Shown one piece after another: positions 2,641 to 23,398 of a stretch of DNA of 24,298 nt. The notes under the pieces are model-generated. The model saw nothing but the letters and a program-made list of their open reading frames with translations. It had not been told where the DNA came from and searched no databases. This stretch comes from a virus. The translations under genes were made by a program, and so were the position numbers. The stretch is from positions 1 to 24,298 of IMG/VR virus record IMGVR_UViG_3300048029_000388. One strand, written 5' to 3'. The first letter of the stretch is position 1. Every line of letters begins with the position of its first letter.

Positions 2641-3414
2641 ATGATATACGCAATAGGTACAAGTCACACATATGGAATGTGTAGAGGTATAGAGAATGGT
2701 GTTCTTGAAAAAACATGGTGTGATGTACTACAGGAACGAGTAGGAAAACCTGTTATCAATTATGGTAGATCAGGAGTAAACAATTTACAACTTATAGAAA
2801 TGGCAGAATATATTTGTAAAAATGACAAGCCTGAATTAATTATTGCAGAACTAAGATGGACAACTCATCCACTTATGTATGAGAAGCACAAACCAGAAAA
2901 AGCATCTGTAGATCTATTTGCAAAAACAAGGTATAATGGTGGTGGTGATACTGACAAGTATGGTGAACTATATAGGGAAATACATTATGGTTGGGCAAAA
3001 CATGTAGAGTACATTGAAAAACGTTTTCCAGAATTTACTAGTAATTTAAGTGAACAAGAACTTCAAGATGTTAAGGGTTGGATAAAAGTCAGTTTCCTAC
3101 ATAACATTATGGAAGATCAGTATAAGCGTCAAGCTCTAAGTAATTTTTATCACTTACAAAGTGTATGTGATAATCATAACATACCTCTAAAAATGTTTGT
3201 TTGGACTGCAAGTAATTATGCAGATTTAAGTGAAAGCAAATTTGATATGTCTGGATTAGGTACATTTGACTTTTTTAAAGACGGAAAAACATTTATTGAA
3301 CACGCTGGTGATTGGACTCAACAACATAGATGTGAATGTGAACATTTTAAATTACCAGTACATGAACACTTAGTAGACATTATTGAACAAGAAGTTTTAG
3401 ATGTTTTTAAATAA
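2641..3414 (+). CDS. SGNH/GDSL-hydrolase-like protein, copy 1 (CxCxH variant)
   Basis: SGNH enzymes hydrolyse or transfer ester-linked acyl groups using Ser, Gly, Asn and His. Block I is AIGTSHTYG (candidate nucleophile Ser8). A Gly block follows in YGRSGVNN, and IIAELRW corresponds to the strand before block III. The C-terminal catalytic block usually reads DxxH; here it is CECEH (231-235), so the Asp position holds Glu and two Cys flank it. The same CxCxH arrangement recurs in the protein at 16543. At 257 residues it has no signal peptide, so it is cytoplasmic. It follows the ANL gene by 2 bases and is one of five paralogues here. Catalytic activity is uncertain because of the changed triad. 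Confidence 0.7.
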   Translation: MIYAIGTSHTYGMCRGIENGVLEKTWCDVLQERVGKPVINYGRSGVNNLQLIEMAEYICKNDKPELIIAELRWTTHPLMYEKHKPEKASVDLFAKTRYNGGGDTDKYGELYREIHYGWAKHVEYIEKRFPEFTSNLSEQELQDVKGWIKVSFLHNIMEDQYKRQALSNFYHLQSVCDNHNIPLKMFVWTASNYADLSESKFDMSGLGTFDFFKDGKTFIEHAGDWTQQHRCECEHFKLPVHEHLVDIIEQEVLDVFK

Positions 3415-3417
3415 ATA
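3410..3417 (+). promoter_or_regulatory. Candidate T4-type late promoter box
   Basis: AATAAATA fits the NATAAATA late promoter box of T4-like phages. It sits at the end of the upstream gene and 23 bases before the ATG at 3441, with a good Shine-Dalgarno (GGGAGA) between. The genome is AT-rich and the same 8-mer also occurs inside a coding region near 23226, so chance is a real possibility. Confidence 0.35.
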
Positions 3418-9231: not shown

Positions 9232-9915
9232 ATGGAACAAGGTAATTGGGCAAAATGTAAAGAGGAATCAAACTATCACTTTGATCCTTTTTCACATACA
9301 TCACAAGCAGATAGAATGCGTTATGTTGGCAGATTTGAGGGCGACTGGTCTGAAGAACTTGCTAAAGCAGTAGAGAACGCAAAAGCAATCACATGGCGTA
9401 GTAGAGATCCTAAAGACAATCCACGTGGTGGTGTAGGTATTGATAGAACTGAAGCTGATATTGTAAATGCAGGTGGCAAAGCAGATACTGAAATTACAAG
9501 TTTAGAAGATGATGTTCATTTATATCCAAGTTTTCAAGCAATGACAGATGCTTTACATCTAGTAGATGGTAAGGATCGTCCCTTACAAACTCGTGTACAT
9601 GTACAAGTACCAGGGCAAACCTGGACAGCCCATGTTGATAGACTACAGAAATGGAGTGAAGAGGAACCATTGTCTAATATATTTAGATTTATGATATTCC
9701 TACACGATTACGAGTTTGGACACTTTGTACAGTATGGTAATGAAATACTTACAAAGTATAGAGCAGGCGAAATTTATACATGGGATCATGTAAACGTACC
9801 ACATTGTACGGCTAACGCAGGTGTTACACCACGTAGTACAATGGTAATTACAGGCATTGGTACACCTGAAACTCATGCAATGTTTAGTCAATCTGATTTA
9901 GTAATAAAAATCTAA
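9232..9915 (+). CDS. Fe(II)/2-oxoglutarate oxygenase-like protein
   Basis: A 227-residue protein. A double-stranded beta-helix core is suggested by VHVQVPGQTWTAHVDRLQKW with an HxD motif (His134, Asp136), then VPHCTANAGVTPR giving a distal His (191) and an Arg ten residues later (201) that would bind 2-oxoglutarate. This is the normal order for 2OG oxygenases, which are frequent in marine T4-like phages. The substrate is not evident; protein, nucleic acid or small-molecule hydroxylation are all possible. It lies 12 bases after DNA polymerase with a weak ribosome binding site, at the end of that unit and just before the RNA locus. Confidence 0.75.
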   Translation: MEQGNWAKCKEESNYHFDPFSHTSQADRMRYVGRFEGDWSEELAKAVENAKAITWRSRDPKDNPRGGVGIDRTEADIVNAGGKADTEITSLEDDVHLYPSFQAMTDALHLVDGKDRPLQTRVHVQVPGQTWTAHVDRLQKWSEEEPLSNIFRFMIFLHDYEFGHFVQYGNEILTKYRAGEIYTWDHVNVPHCTANAGVTPRSTMVITGIGTPETHAMFSQSDLVIKI

Positions 9916-9923
9916 AAAAAAGG

Positions 9924-9952
9924 TTGACAATCAATAGTTTATATCATATATT
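9924..9952 (+). promoter_or_regulatory. Sigma70-type promoter of the structured RNA
   Basis: TTGACA (9924-9929), a 17-base spacer and TATATT (9947-9952). The start point would fall near 9959. The GG before TTGACA is shared with the promoters at 10404, 12056 and 12902, but the palindromic spacer of those three is absent, so this RNA would escape that control. No start codon with a ribosome binding site follows at a usual distance. Confidence 0.8.
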
Positions 9953-9958
9953 GTTATT

Positions 9959-10200
9959 AATAAGGCGACGGTCTTGTTAGAGTAGTGCAAGGAAGAGACA
10001 TTTACCAGAGTGTCGAACTTGGCTAGTTAGGGGTGGTACCCAGGTATGGTTGCAGAAATGCGTTGTATCACATTGCTCTCCCGAGCGGAACTAGGCTCCC
10101 TGGCTTTGAGAATGGTATCTCGGTCGAGGGGTTGGAGGTGAACCCAAAGTCCTCCCTACTCATTATAAAAAAAGGCACCTATAAAAGGTGCCTTCTTCTT
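9959..10200 (+). ncRNA. Structured non-coding RNA, about 240 nt, unknown family
   Basis: Bounded by a consensus promoter (9924-9952) and a terminator hairpin (10172-10194). It is visibly richer in G+C than the flanking genes. Self-complementary blocks seen: CTTG 9973-9976 with CAAG 9988-9991; GACA 9997-10000 with TGTC 10011-10014; CCAGG 10040-10044 with CCTGG 10099-10103, enclosing GCA-GAAA-TGC (10052-10061) and GAGC/GCTC (10083-10086/10095-10098); GAGA/TCTC (10108-10111/10118-10121). There is also a possible pseudoknot: GGGT 10129-10132 with ACCC 10142-10145, and GGAGG 10134-10138 with CCTCC 10151-10155. The conflicting pairs 10023-10028/10089-10094 and 10028-10033/10153-10158 could be alternative folds. 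No tRNA, tmRNA or RNase P signature recognised. The exact ends are inferred. Confidence 0.7.
10172..10194. terminator. Bidirectional intrinsic terminator
   Basis: Arms of 9 bp (AAGGCACCT and AGGTGCCTT) around the loop ATAAA. On the + strand it is followed by CTTCTTT. On the minus strand it is followed by an uninterrupted run of Ts (the A-run at 10167-10173), so it is stronger in the minus direction. It lies exactly between the + strand RNA and the minus-strand unit at 10209-10393, as expected for convergent transcripts. Confidence 0.85.
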
Positions 10201-10208
10201 TGCGATTG

Positions 10209-10310
10209 CTACGAACTTTGCAGTCGACTACGATAAAATAGTATACGCTCGAGTCTAGCAATTCTTCTTAGTTGGCTAAAACGAGCGAGTACCCAATGTT
10301 GTGAAGTCAT
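10209..10310 (-). CDS. 33-residue Arg-rich peptide ORF on the minus strand
   Basis: It starts at ATG (10310 to 10308) and ends at TAG (10211 to 10209). A near-perfect Shine-Dalgarno, GAGGAGG, lies 5-6 bases upstream (+ coordinates about 10316-10322). The peptide MTSQHWVLARFSQLRRIARL plus ERILFYRSRLQSS has seven Arg, no Lys and no Cys, and could be an amphipathic helix. It is framed by a T4-like late promoter box and tandem pseudoknots upstream and the terminator downstream, which argues for a real transcription unit opposite to all other genes. No homologue is recognised. The peptide may be real or the ribosome binding site may be fortuitous. Confidence 0.45.
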   Translation of the reverse strand: MTSQHWVLARFSQLRRIARLERILFYRSRLQSS

Positions 10311-10330
10311 TGTACCCTCCTCTTTCTTAA

Positions 10331-10380
10331 CCAGCTTTTAACCCATGCTGAATGGGCCACTTTTAAACCATGTGAATGGT
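10331..10380 (-). promoter_or_regulatory. Tandem H-type pseudoknots in a minus-strand leader
   Basis: Two adjoining copies of one design, read on the minus strand. Copy 1 (10380-10357): stem 1 ACCAU/AUGGU, loop U, stem 2 CAC/GUG, A-rich loop UUAAAA. Copy 2 (10356-10331): stem 1 CCCAU/AUGGG, loop U, stem 2 CAGC/GCUG, the same UUAAAA loop. Base differences between the copies keep pairing (A-U becomes C-G in stem 1; stem 2 changes on both sides). Loop lengths suit the minus strand: one base across stem 2 and six A/U across stem 1. They sit between the predicted start point (about 10380) and the Shine-Dalgarno at 10322-10315, where they could control translation. Confidence 0.6.
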
Positions 10381-10385
10381 ATACG

Positions 10386-10393
10386 TATTTATC
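10386..10393 (-). promoter_or_regulatory. Candidate T4-type late promoter box, minus strand
   Basis: GATAAATA on the minus strand fits NATAAATA. With usual T4 late spacing the RNA would start near 10380, which is exactly the first base of the first pseudoknot. That coincidence raises confidence, although the 8-mer is not rare in AT-rich DNA. Confidence 0.5.
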
Positions 10394-10403
10394 AACAAAA
10401 AGG

Positions 10404-16070: not shown

Positions 16071-16550
16071 ATGGCTTATTATAGCACAAAAACTTATAAT
16101 CATAGTATTGGACTAAGTGCGGTTTTTAGACAACCACACGCAGATCATTCACACTGTAAATACTTACATGGTTACAGTTTAGCATTCAAGTTTACATTTG
16201 GTTGTAAAGAACTTGATAACAAAAACTGGGCAGTAGACTTTGGTGGATTAAAGCCACTTAAACAATGGCTTGAAGATACATTTGATCACAAGACAGTGAT
16301 TGATGTAAATGATCCTCATCTAAACGACTTTAGAATTTTAGAAGCAAAACATCTATGTCAAGTTGTTGTACTAGATGGCGTGGGTGCAGAGAAGTTTGCA
16401 GAACATGCCTGGCGATTTGCAGACGAATTGATTAGAGAAATGACAGATGATCGTTGTTGGTGTGAATCTGCTGAATGTTCTGAGCATGGAGCAAATAGTG
16501 CAATCTACACACCGTTTACTTGGCAGAAGACAACATTTGCAGATGCATAA
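16071..16550 (+). CDS. 6-pyruvoyl-tetrahydropterin synthase/QueD-family protein
   Basis: QueD converts dihydroneopterin triphosphate to 6-carboxytetrahydropterin on the way to preQ0/queuosine; family relatives act in pterin synthesis. Seen: a His-rich front (PHADHSHCKYLHGYSL, candidate nucleophile Cys29), FDHK (72-75), LDGVGAEKF, and SEHGANSAIYTP near the end. The usual HGH zinc motif reads HGY here (33-35), so one zinc ligand seems changed or supplied from elsewhere. The length, 159 residues, is slightly above that of bacterial QueD. A ribosome binding site AAGGAG is present. No queC, queE or folE is in the window. The family is confident, the exact reaction is not. Confidence 0.8.
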   Translation: MAYYSTKTYNHSIGLSAVFRQPHADHSHCKYLHGYSLAFKFTFGCKELDNKNWAVDFGGLKPLKQWLEDTFDHKTVIDVNDPHLNDFRILEAKHLCQVVVLDGVGAEKFAEHAWRFADELIREMTDDRCWCESAECSEHGANSAIYTPFTWQKTTFADA

Positions 16551-17454: not shown

Positions 17455-17732
17455 AAAACTTACGTGAAGTATACGATCCTGAAATAAGTGTCAATGTATA
17501 TGATCTTGGATTGATTTATGAGATAAATGTTAATGAGTCACATGTAGATATAGTAATGACATTAACTAGTGCCTTCTGTCCAGCGGCAGATGAAATTATA
17601 GCAGACGTACATGATGCATGTTGCCTTGCAGAAGGAATAGAAACATGTAATGTTGATGTAACGTTTGATCCACCTTTTGGCCCTGACAAAATGAGTGAGG
17701 ATGTCAAAATGATGTTAGGAGTTTGGGATTGA
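17433..17732 (+). CDS. SufT/MIP18-family (DUF59) Fe-S assembly protein
   Basis: A 99-residue protein. The family mark is [20 protein letters not shown] followed by [13 protein letters not shown] with the conserved Cys49, then [20 protein letters not shown] and a terminal LG. These match SufT/PaaD/MIP18-like domains that help mature Fe-S proteins. It overlaps the upstream SGNH gene by 22 bases and the downstream ferredoxin by TTGA, so scaffold and client-like genes are adjacent. Phages seldom carry SufT; with the A-type carrier at 21964 it suggests a viral Fe-S maturation function. Family identity is confident. Confidence 0.88.
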
Positions 17733-18091
17733 CATTTATAGTAAATGATGCATGTATTAAATGTAAGTATACAGATTGTGTGGAAGTCTGTCCCGTAGAT
17801 TGTTTCTACGAAGGTGACAACATGCTTGTTATCAATCCAGATGAATGTATTGATTGCGGAGTGTGTGAGCCTGAATGTCCAGCAGGTGCCATTTTGCCAG
17901 ATACAAATCTTGGTGGCTGTGATGTTGATTGGGTTGAAATAAACAGGAAATATTCTCAAGACATGAACTGGCCTAATATTACAGAAATGAAAGAACCCAT
18001 GCCAGATGCAGATAGTTTTAATCCAAAAGAAGGATATACAGGACCAAGTAAACTAGATCAGTTAAGTGAAGAACCAGGAGAAGGCGATTGA
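17729..18091 (+). CDS. fdxA: 7Fe ferredoxin (FdxA-like)
   Basis: Start TTG 17729 (overlap TTGA with the previous stop) gives [20 protein letters not shown], matching the classic beginning of FdxA-type ferredoxins; a TTG two codons upstream is less likely. Cluster ligands are Cys9, Cys17, Cys21 and Cys25, then Cys40, Cys43, Cys46 and Cys50, spaced as in Azotobacter ferredoxin I ([3Fe-4S] plus [4Fe-4S]); Cys12 is extra. A tail of about 65 residues ends acidic (EEPGEGD). Low-potential electron transfer in the cytoplasm is expected. It sits between SufT-like and PyrF, and could donate electrons to an oxygenase or dehydrogenase such as those encoded nearby, but the partner is unknown. Confidence 0.92.
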
Positions 18092-18729
18092 AAATAATTA
18101 TAGCATTAGATAGTATAGACGCAGAAAAGAATATTGATATTGCAACAAGTCTTAAAGGCATGGTTGATGGATTTAAAATTAATCACCTGATGTGGGAAAA
18201 TACAAAATTACTTAAAACATTAGCAGATGAATTGTTTATTGATTGTAAATTATGGGACACACCAAATACAGTTGAACAAGTTCTAAGACGAATAAAATGT
18301 AAAGGTGCTACAATGACAACAGTATCAACCTTTAACAATAGAGCAGTATTTGAGGCTTGTCAAAAATATGCAGATGATATGAAAATATTAGGAGTTACAT
18401 ATCTCACAAGTTGGGATAGTATGGAACTTCTTAATATTACAAATCAAAATGCAAAAGTTACATGGCGTAGTGCTATAGATAGTATAAGCGACTTTGGCTT
18501 TTCAGGAGTAATATGTAGCCCTAAAGATTTAGATACAGTAAAACCACTAGCACCAAATATGTTAAAAGTTTGTCCTGGCATAGGTAATAATCCTGGGCAG
18601 ACACGTACAGTGACGGCAAAAGAAGCGTTAAATATGGGTGCAGACTACATTGTAGTAGGCAGAACAGTAACTAATGCAGAAAATCCTGCAAGTGCAGTAG
18701 AAGAAATGAAAGAAAGTTTACTTTTATGA
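18088..18729 (+). CDS. pyrF: Orotidine 5'-phosphate decarboxylase
   Basis: It converts OMP to UMP, the last step of UMP synthesis. Seen: IIALDS with Asp8, FKIN with Lys30, the catalytic array [10 protein letters not shown] (Asp52, Lys54, Asp57, Thr61), then VCPGIGNN for phosphate binding and [17 protein letters not shown] near the end. All catalytic residues of the family are present, and at 213 residues the length is normal for the compact bacterial form. It starts with TTG 18088, overlapping the ferredoxin stop. It is 4.0 kb upstream of a dihydroorotate dehydrogenase-like gene in the same run, so the phage seems to support pyrimidine supply. No orotate phosphoribosyltransferase is recognised in the window. 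Confidence 0.93.
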
Positions 18730-20622: not shown

Positions 20623-21455
20623 AAGTTTGCGTCATATATAGTGGGCAGACAAGAAGTTACAATAACAATCATGAGTTGTGGCATAGCCATAAAAGAATGG
20701 CTGATGAACTTCAAACACGTTATAACATTGAAGTTGATTTCGTTGGTCATACTTGGGAAGATCAACCAATACCCTGGAACATAAGTGACTTTATACAATT
20801 CAAACAGGATAATCAAGACTGTATTGATATGTGGGCAAAAGATGACTTCTTTAAACGTGCATGGTGGGCTCCAGGCAGTGATACATTTCAGGACTTTGTT
20901 ATAGATTGTATTGACCAACGTAAGGGTAATGAACTGTTAGACAAAATAATACATAACACCAGGCAAGCATATGGACAAATTTTTAGTTTCTTTAAATGTA
21001 TAGATGAACTAGATAACACTTATGATGCATATTTTAAAACTCGTTGGGATATAATGATTGATAAAACACTTGGACTATGCGAATTCTTTCCATATGCTAT
21101 TGAAGAAAAGGATCCACTTGTTTTGTTTTCTGGAAATGCTTACATAAACCCACAACACCCTAAAGACAGAATGCATAATACTGCTACAACCAAAACTTTT
21201 GTGGGCGATACAAACTTTGTTATTAATAAGAAAGCAATGAATGCATACAAGGATACCAATTGGCTTGATTACTTACATTGGAATATTGTAAATTCAAGAT
21301 ATGATGATCCTAAACCAAGTAGTCACACATTATGGACAATGATGCACCCTGATACTATAACAGGAAGGTTCGTATTAAAAGGTGATTGTTTTAGTATAAC
21401 TAGAACACCAGATGATGTAAATCGAAAAAAGGAAATAAACAAATGGGCTATTTAG
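20619..21455 (+). CDS. Glycosyltransferase-like protein, tandem copy 2
   Basis: Start ATG 20619 overlaps the previous stop by ATGA. The 278-residue protein shares blocks with copy 1: CVIYSGQTRSYNNN, VDFVGHTWED, YDAYFKTRWDIMI and KPSSHTLWTMMH. The remaining sequence has diverged, so the duplication is not recent. It also has DTNFVINKKAMNAY, the usual acceptor-side block before the C-terminal domain. The end overlaps apt by 13 bases. Two divergent copies in tandem suggest two linkages or a heterodimer. No signal peptide. The assignment is by motif order only. Confidence 0.65.
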   Translation: MKVCVIYSGQTRSYNNNHELWHSHKRMADELQTRYNIEVDFVGHTWEDQPIPWNISDFIQFKQDNQDCIDMWAKDDFFKRAWWAPGSDTFQDFVIDCIDQRKGNELLDKIIHNTRQAYGQIFSFFKCIDELDNTYDAYFKTRWDIMIDKTLGLCEFFPYAIEEKDPLVLFSGNAYINPQHPKDRMHNTATTKTFVGDTNFVINKKAMNAYKDTNWLDYLHWNIVNSRYDDPKPSSHTLWTMMHPDTITGRFVLKGDCFSITRTPDDVNRKKEINKWAI

Positions 21456-21967
21456 AATTAAAAGAATATATTAGAACAGTGCCGGACTATCCGGTAGAGG
21501 GCGTTAATTTTTACGACCTGAACAGTTTATTTGCAAGTGATATTTGGTCACAAGTTGTTGAAGAGCTTGTTGAGAAAATGGAACATCTTCACTTTACACA
21601 TATTGTAGGTGTTGAAAGTCGTGGCTTTGTAGTAGCACAGGCTATTGCAAGTGAACTTAGAAAACCTATGGTTATGGTACGTAAAAAGGGTGCTAAATAC
21701 CCAGGTAAGTTACTAGAAGAGTCTTACGAATTAGAATACGGCACTGATACTCTTACACTTCAGGAGGGTATACTAGGACACACAAGTAGAGTTCTAATTG
21801 CAGATGATCTTATTGCTACTGGCGGTAGTATGTTGGCAACAAAAAGATTATGTGAACAGACAGGTGCCCGTGTAATTGCAACAGCAACAATCGTAAATCT
21901 TCGTTATTTAAATGCAGAAGGTTTAAGTGATATGGAAATTTACAGTTCAATGGGGGTAGATAAATGA
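21443..21967 (+). CDS. apt: Adenine phosphoribosyltransferase
   Basis: It joins adenine and PRPP to form AMP. Family marks are an N-terminal flexible hood (RTVPDYPVEGVNFYDLNSLF), GVESRGF for pyrophosphate binding, ESYELEYGTDTL (the Apt-specific segment) and the PRPP loop VLIADDLIATGGSM (117-130). At 174 residues it is full length. The Apt segment argues against it being an orotate phosphoribosyltransferase, although it lies in the same run as the pyrimidine genes. It overlaps the following A-type carrier by ATGA. It would salvage adenine released by host nucleic acid breakdown. Confidence 0.9.
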   Translation: MGYLELKEYIRTVPDYPVEGVNFYDLNSLFASDIWSQVVEELVEKMEHLHFTHIVGVESRGFVVAQAIASELRKPMVMVRKKGAKYPGKLLEESYELEYGTDTLTLQEGILGHTSRVLIADDLIATGGSMLATKRLCEQTGARVIATATIVNLRYLNAEGLSDMEIYSSMGVDK

Positions 21968-22685: not shown

Positions 22686-23398
22686 TTTTTATATCAGCAC
22701 CTTTTGGAAATTACTTACACTATAAAAATACTCTTAGTGTACATGGTACATTTACTGTGTCACCACGTCCTGGCAGACTAAAAGCAATAATCAAAACATT
22801 AAGATATACTAAACAGGGTTGGAGAAACAAATTAGGTTTGCGTAATCCTGGATTACATGCTGGCATGTTCAAAACAAGTTATGATAATGTACTTAGTGTG
22901 GCGGCTATAGAACCTGCAGACTGGACAAAGATACAGATGTCTATAGGAGTAGAGCGTAACATAGAACTAAACGTAAGTTGCCCTAATTTAGATTCACATG
23001 ACGATACAACTACGTGGGAAAACTTTGAAAAGTTTCCAAATAAAATGCGAGGCAAGTATTGTATTGTAAAGATTCCACCAAACAGTAGTGAAACATTAAT
23101 TGATAAACTTGTAGACATGGGCTACACACAAATTCATGCAAGTAATACATTACCAACAGATAAAGGTGGATTAAGTGGCAAAATACTACAGCCCTATACT
23201 ATGAAACTTGTAAAATATATCAAGAATAAATATCCGGAAGTAGAAGTAATTGCCGGAGGTGGAATTACAACACCAAAAGATGCAAAAAATTATTATGACG
23301 AAGGCGCAGATCACATAAGCCTCGGATCAGTTTGCTTTACGCCGTGGAAGATTAGGAAAATTATAAATGAAAGTGGCGGTAATAGGTTGCAGTCATAG
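22682..23398 (+). CDS. Compact dihydroorotate dehydrogenase-like flavoprotein
   Basis: DHODs oxidise dihydroorotate to orotate with FMN. Seen: FTVSPRPGR, LRNPGLHAGM, the substrate motif ELNVSCPN (95-102), VKIPP with Lys130, ASNT (153-156), the flavin motif GGLSG (162-166), AGGGI (191-195) and LGSVCF (214-219). These are in correct barrel order. I chose ATG 22682 (ATGA overlap with the previous stop). At 238 residues it lacks part of the usual N-terminus and appears shorter in loops than class 1 (about 310) or class 2 (about 340) enzymes. It pairs functionally with pyrF at 18088. It could also be a related flavin barrel acting on another substrate. Confidence 0.82.
   Translation: MIFISAPFGNYLHYKNTLSVHGTFTVSPRPGRLKAIIKTLRYTKQGWRNKLGLRNPGLHAGMFKTSYDNVLSVAAIEPADWTKIQMSIGVERNIELNVSCPNLDSHDDTTTWENFEKFPNKMRGKYCIVKIPPNSSETLIDKLVDMGYTQIHASNTLPTDKGGLSGKILQPYTMKLVKYIKNKYPEVEVIAGGGITTPKDAKNYYDEGADHISLGSVCFTPWKIRKIINESGGNRLQS

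Follow-up and report, generated by a model that had tools for sequence, protein, structure and literature searches.

The analyzed window, i.e., the whole 24,298-nt stretch of DNA (IMG/VR record IMGVR_UViG_3300048029_000388, positions 1 to 24,298), carries all of its sizeable genes on the + strand. A self-contained late transcription unit was found on the minus strand, in which promoter box, pseudoknots, Shine-Dalgarno sequence, ORF, and terminator follow one another exactly as a first-pass annotation had described. The unit opens with a T4-type late promoter box read from the sequence, GATAAATA (10393-10386, minus strand), located 5 nt ahead of the first base of pseudoknot 1 (PK1). PK1 (10380-10358, minus strand; ACCAU-U-CAC-AUGGU-UUAAAA-GUG) consists of stem S1 (ACCAU:AUGGU), loop L1 (U), stem S2 (CAC:GUG), and loop L3 (UUAAAA). 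A single G, between 10358 and 10356 on the minus strand, links it to pseudoknot 2 (PK2; 10356-10332, minus strand; CCCAU-U-CAGC-AUGGG-UUAAAA-GCUG), with S1 CCCAU:AUGGG, L1 U, S2 CAGC:GCUG, and L3 UUAAAA. Both knots are supported by covariation, and PK1 also by the covariance model (CM) R1. The Shine-Dalgarno sequence GAGGAGG (10322-10316, minus strand), likewise read from the sequence, and the start codon lie within a hairpin predicted by minimum-energy folding (10273-10333, minus strand). They are followed by a 33-codon Arg-rich ORF, MTSQHWVLARFSQLRRIARLERILFYRSRLQSS (33 aa; 10310-10209, minus strand), with homologues in contigs L004 and L008, and by an intrinsic terminator hairpin with a T-run (10199-10167, minus strand), identified by folding of the transcript and matched on the + strand at 10172-10194.

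The strict tandem-pseudoknot design occurred in none of 600 windows simulated with an order-1 Markov model, and strict-design single pseudoknots arose at 0.10 per simulated window, compared with two observed, which form one tandem. The unit transcript (~215 nt) folds with z = -4.75. A looser scanner gave four tandem matches in 20 block-shuffled windows and was dropped as unspecific; it is therefore the relatives, together with the strict design, that bear the evidential weight. The existence of the minus-strand unit is confirmed, and it represents one case of an undescribed leader RNA.

The unit converges on a predicted + strand manA RNA (RF01745; 9958-10165), a neighbor outside the unit that was absent from the first-pass annotation, and the terminator at 10199-10167 is common to both. 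The manA match is full length; cmscan scored it at 55.1 bits (E 2.2e-13), 0.1 bit short of the 55.2 required for gathering; a matching manA RNA in Pelagibacter phage Mosig (64 bits) lies directly before a rubrerythrin gene. In the window, the manA RNA has its own TTGACA/TATATT promoter-like site at 9924 (+) and a terminator directly behind it (9924-10194), and thus looks like a free-standing small RNA. The gene at 9232-9915 was read by us as 2OG-oxygenase-like, and L013, which contains a relative of this gene, has neither RNA behind it. Several + strand genes are preceded by copies (10404, 12056, and 12902) of an early promoter that combines TTGACA with a TAAG..ATCTTA-type palindrome behind it. 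The first copy adjoins the minus-strand late box, so that late transcription from the unit could shut off the ligase promoter. The window also encodes host-like metabolic genes, namely QueD/PTPS, ferredoxin, OMP-decarboxylase-like, phosphoribosyltransferase, and AMP-binding enzyme genes (16071-16550, 17723-18091, 18088-18729, 21443-21967, and 1577-2638).

Relatives of the leader and the tiny genes behind it

Pattern scans revealed the same layout (5′ pseudoknot, one-purine linker, second pseudoknot, ribosome-binding site (RBS), and tiny ORF) in about 20 other IMG/VR contigs, ahead of tiny genes of at least four kinds (33, 38, 66, and 78 codons). Neighboring genes encode UvsX, baseplate, and, by our own reading, DsbA-like proteins, indicating that these marine phages are T4-like. 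A scan with the PK2 pattern recovered L004 and L008, in which the entire unit lies in different gene contexts and the 33-codon ORF is kept, with the signature HW[IV]LARFSQLR[RK]IA. Scanning with PK1 only revealed the tandem leader ahead of 66-codon genes (L071/L085 and L074/L080/L086) and of a 78-codon gene (L087). With a looser pattern, ten contigs were identified in which the leader precedes a 38-codon gene, MQ[VI]TKNI..RWGYK; leaving loop and stem 2 unconstrained added L122/L123. The near-invariance of PK1 is partly due to ascertainment, since most scans required its sequence; PK2 was unconstrained in the PK1-only scan, as were loop and stem 2 in the free-loop scan.

Peptide scans found only the three 33-codon members, none of them in the genome-contig collection. 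No match was found in cultured phages, where blastn of the leaders against 50,697 phage records returned chance matches only and the complete records of five Pelagibacter phages, searched with the CM, gave no copy above chance. Among the phages with the 33-codon ORF, all three carry the unit against the direction of its neighbors and a short distance upstream of an early-type gene, which has a TTGACA-like promoter and is read divergently from the unit. The unit is absent at the same flank in the ligase relatives L010-L062, and is thus not fixed to this locus.

The 33-codon ORF, proposed in the first-pass annotation, was substantiated by its homologues in L004 and L008, with dN/dS values of 0.27-0.61 among the three members. 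The 38-codon set gave values of 0.04-0.62 where measurable, and L074 versus L086 gave 0.19. These ratios show that the predicted tiny ORFs are coding and under purifying selection. The 33-codon ORF has no match in PHROGs or Pfam and no PDB relative. Relatives of the 66-codon ORF occur in Pelagibacter phages (phrog_32989), and neither the pseudoknot scanner nor R1 detected a leader at the Pelagibacter loci fetched for them. An alignment suggests, without proving, that the 33-codon ORF, which has no PHROG hit, is a shortened 66-codon ORF. In L097, L099, and L113, an SdhB-like iron-sulfur gene (Fer2_3 and Fer4 domains in L099) lies behind the 38-codon ORF, within a few bases of it in L097 and L113; the leader may therefore control this metabolic gene as well.

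Comparison of these contigs shows reuse of the predicted leader before unrelated tiny genes, a conservation that the first-pass annotation had not noted. This reuse, including that before an ORF and then an SdhB-like gene, and the conservation of the ORFs at the protein level, make it very improbable that the transcript serves chiefly as a small regulatory RNA with an incidental or secondary ORF, even though it is only ~215 nt long, has its own promoter and terminator, and folds stably.

Pseudoknot structure and the transcript 5′ end

The first-pass annotation had proposed two pseudoknots of one design and staked them on compensatory stem changes in related phages, and such changes were found. 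Over 12 distinct leaders, 98.5% of the pair cells of the four stems are paired and six pairs change on both sides, whereas sliding the partner strand by 1-3 columns reduced pairing to 21-38%; in the MAFFT alignment, one loop gap is wrongly placed in L071 and L074, with the sole effect of lowering the number of pairs counted. Five of the pairs changed on both sides belong to PK2 (12 distinct leaders, G-U wobbles counted). Stem 2 of PK2, which occurs as CAGC:GCUG, CAUC:GAUG, CUAC:GUAG, CCAC:GUGG, GUCC:GGAC, and GUCC:GGGC, is the strongest case of covariation. In PK1, the second S1 pair changes from C-G to G-C in L004 and L109. Each knot spans 23-26 nt, with a first loop of 0-2 nt, zero bases from stem 2 to the 3′ strand of stem 1, and a third loop of 6 nt, mostly UNAAAA, that ends in AAAA (with the exception of L087); one purine forms the joint between the knots. 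The CM R1 scored members at 63-77 bits, compared with at most 18.6 bits for all else (677 kb). Within the 38-codon clade, the two pseudoknots differ at 0-4 of ~50 nt, whereas the ORF behind them is often saturated at synonymous sites. The covariation demonstrates the predicted tandem pseudoknots.

The tolerance of G-U pairs points to RNA rather than DNA. A DNA-level element, in the form of operator palindromes or extruded single-stranded DNA, would account for the inverted repeat that constitutes stem 1 of each knot. However, stem 2 covaries between a loop and a downstream strand with G-U pairs kept, and the orientation relative to promoter and ORF is fixed, which leaves this explanation barely credible. 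Frameshifting was also considered and was rejected, as no ORF is read into the knots.

A TATAAATA-like late box of T4 type would place the start five bases downstream in the window and its relatives. This box-N5-PK1 arrangement was observed in the window, in L004 (as the variant CTAAATA), in L008, and in the 38-codon clade. T4 late boxes, which are used by the late sigma factor gp55 and the co-activator gp33, occupy positions -13 to -6, so that +1 would coincide with base 1 of PK1. The same start is implied by a sigma70-like TTGACA/TACAAT (TACACT) promoter seven bases ahead of PK1 in L074 and L086, and L071 has GATAAT at this distance; the exception is L087, with ~16 extra nt between predicted start and PK1. 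The spacing supports the start proposed in the first-pass annotation, and we infer from it a 5′ end on the first base of PK1 in nearly all members, under either a T4-late or a sigma70-like promoter. The ATAAATA core is strongly depleted in the window (three found versus 14 expected from shuffles), with copies at 3411-3417, 10386-10392, and 23226-23232, of which only 10386-10392 is on the minus strand. Other late-box genes of the member contigs have leaders of mostly 11-28 nt, indicating that the 70-85 nt leader is dedicated.

The terminal position also raises a serious rival explanation, which we nevertheless regard as rather unlikely, namely that knots on the first transcribed base protect the 5′ end by blocking pyrophosphate removal, RNase E entry, and 5′-3′ exonuclease, so that the mRNA of an abundant tiny protein persists for long without any switching of its translation. 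Such protection would require a terminal position only of the 5′ knot, which is where it is found, with a predicted +1 on PK1 base 1 under both ATAAATA-N5 (window, L008, and the 38-codon clade) and TTGACA/TACAAT-N7 (L074 and L086). However, it would leave the second knot and the covarying RBS hairpin (see below) superfluous, it fits poorly with the ~16 nt ahead of PK1 in L087, and such a cap is absent from the other late mRNAs of these phages.

The RBS hairpin and control of translation

A further element absent from the first-pass annotation is the hairpin around the RBS that overlaps PK2. All members tested are predicted to be able to fold such a hairpin directly behind PK2, and in 11 of 15 its 5′ arm begins at base three of the four-base last strand of PK2. 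In the window, the 5′ arm of the hairpin (10273-10333) reuses the final two bases of PK2 stem 2; the hairpin is the minimum-energy fold (z = -2.6), and an overlapping helix at least as stable was obtained in 1 of 500 shuffles. Over five clades, hairpin stability exceeds that of shuffles (Fisher p = 6e-5). The hairpin of the 38-codon clade, GCGUAAUGUUC/GAAUAUUAUGC, is predicted to bury the start codon. All of its cells are paired (88/88) and 5 of its 11 pairs vary, one of them doubly (compensatory), a pattern that demonstrates the predicted RBS hairpin in this clade.

Locking the PK2 strand in the folding model weakened the hairpins by 3.6-7.0 kcal/mol and, in the 38-codon clade, increased opening of the AUG from 0.00 to 0.02-0.68. 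In the 33-codon clade, including the window, locking gave no rise in predicted RBS accessibility. A helix overlapping the four free stem 2 bases arises in 38-82% of shuffles, so that the overlap alone is weak evidence of a switch. In view of both results, a switch is the best reading of the data, not a demonstrated one.

Two local features were also observed. The 33-codon ORFs and the 66-codon ORF of L071 contain an identical stretch, CGTTTTAGCC (window 10273-10290), that can pair with GGUUAA/GGUUUUAAC behind PK2 and may serve as an RNA arm as well as coding sequence. In the 38-codon clade (e.g., L097 after 3795), an SD-like AAAAGGG overlaps the last PK2 strand and precedes an upstream AUG, GUAAUGUUC, possibly a mini-ORF ahead of the real start.

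On balance, we consider it somewhat probable that the element is a conserved cis-acting leader, in which two H-type pseudoknots are arranged head to tail and which gates translation of the tiny ORF within a short late mRNA. During transcription, PK1 and PK2 would form first. With PK2 stem 2 intact, the base of the RBS hairpin would be weakened and ribosomes could load, whereas opening of stem 2 would allow the hairpin to close; the balance might be set by a factor of phage or host origin, or by the infected cell's physical state. We infer the competition between PK2 and the hairpin, the direction of control, and the trigger. More tentatively, the leader could represent a new class of RNA switch, in which two stacked 5′-terminal pseudoknots jointly sense a late-infection ligand, protein, or cell state, a mutually exclusive hairpin controls the start codon, and the cassette is reused before different tiny proteins.

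Another proposal, a translational operator bound by a phage protein in the manner of gp32 on the T4 gene 32 pseudoknot, is mechanistically the main gating model with a protein as trigger. The T4 operator comprises a ~28 nt 5′ pseudoknot, UUAAA repeats, and the RBS (PMC535899, PMC3014915), and the leader resembles it in knot size, third loops, and 5′-terminal position. However, the parallel with gene 32 drawn in the first-pass annotation found no support: within the 38-codon clade, the gp32 homologues of contigs G010 and G014 have plain, motif-free leaders. The leader is thus not an instance of gp32 autoregulation, though it might be acted on in trans. As a separate explanation, the operator is distinctly unlikely.

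Comparison with known systems

No Rfam 15 family, riboswitches included, matched the window leader at its gathering score. At E up to 5, the sole overlap was a chance antisense SL2 hit (20.7 bits versus 41), and the leaders of four member loci gave none at E up to 1. The preQ1-I riboswitch is likewise a minimal H-type pseudoknot with an A-rich third loop upstream of the RBS; its ligand sits in the segment joining stem 2 to the 3′ strand of stem 1, whereas the leader has no bases there and no Rfam match.

The closest system in layout is the STAXI motif (RF01728), in which a small pseudoknot recurs head to tail in two or, more often, three copies (PMC2864571). The leader is similarly a tandem, with two covarying pseudoknots. 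However, it lacks UUCG loops, contains exactly two knots, is positioned at the mRNA 5′ end before tiny ORFs, and is not found beside ssb, topoisomerase, integrase, or antirestriction genes. STAXI is excluded by its CM, which gave one unrelated hit in 14 motif records (4.8 bits versus a cut-off of 40.5). The closest system in setting is the gene 32 operator of T4, T2, and RB69, also a small 5′ pseudoknot upstream of the RBS, with UUAAA-type sequence, in T4-like phages (PMC535899, PMC3014915). The leader differs in having two knots, an RBS hairpin, and downstream ORFs of 33-78 aa, and in its absence from the gp32 genes noted above. The manA and wcaG RNAs of cyanophages and marine metagenomes are orphan structured RNAs of T4-like marine phages (PMC2864571), as is the leader, which a manA RNA directly adjoins; their structure is unlike that of the leader, and they are mostly known ahead of metabolic genes.

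The leader thus constitutes a new family of a known general kind, the cis-regulatory leader pseudoknots, for which the mechanism given here is a proposal. Among marine T4-like phages, a group that includes the pelagimyophages, for which in silico mapping of late promoters did not succeed (PMC7029224), the leader provides a way into late gene control. It also provides a compact natural module (~50 nt) for testing, and a pointer to tiny ORFs that can escape gene callers. A 2010 review described T4 gene 32 as perhaps the only viral example of a pseudoknot in translational autoregulation (PMC3014915). To leader pseudoknots controlling phage translation, so far nearly a single case, these findings add a well-covarying cassette of uncultured marine phages, reused on several unrelated tiny ORFs.
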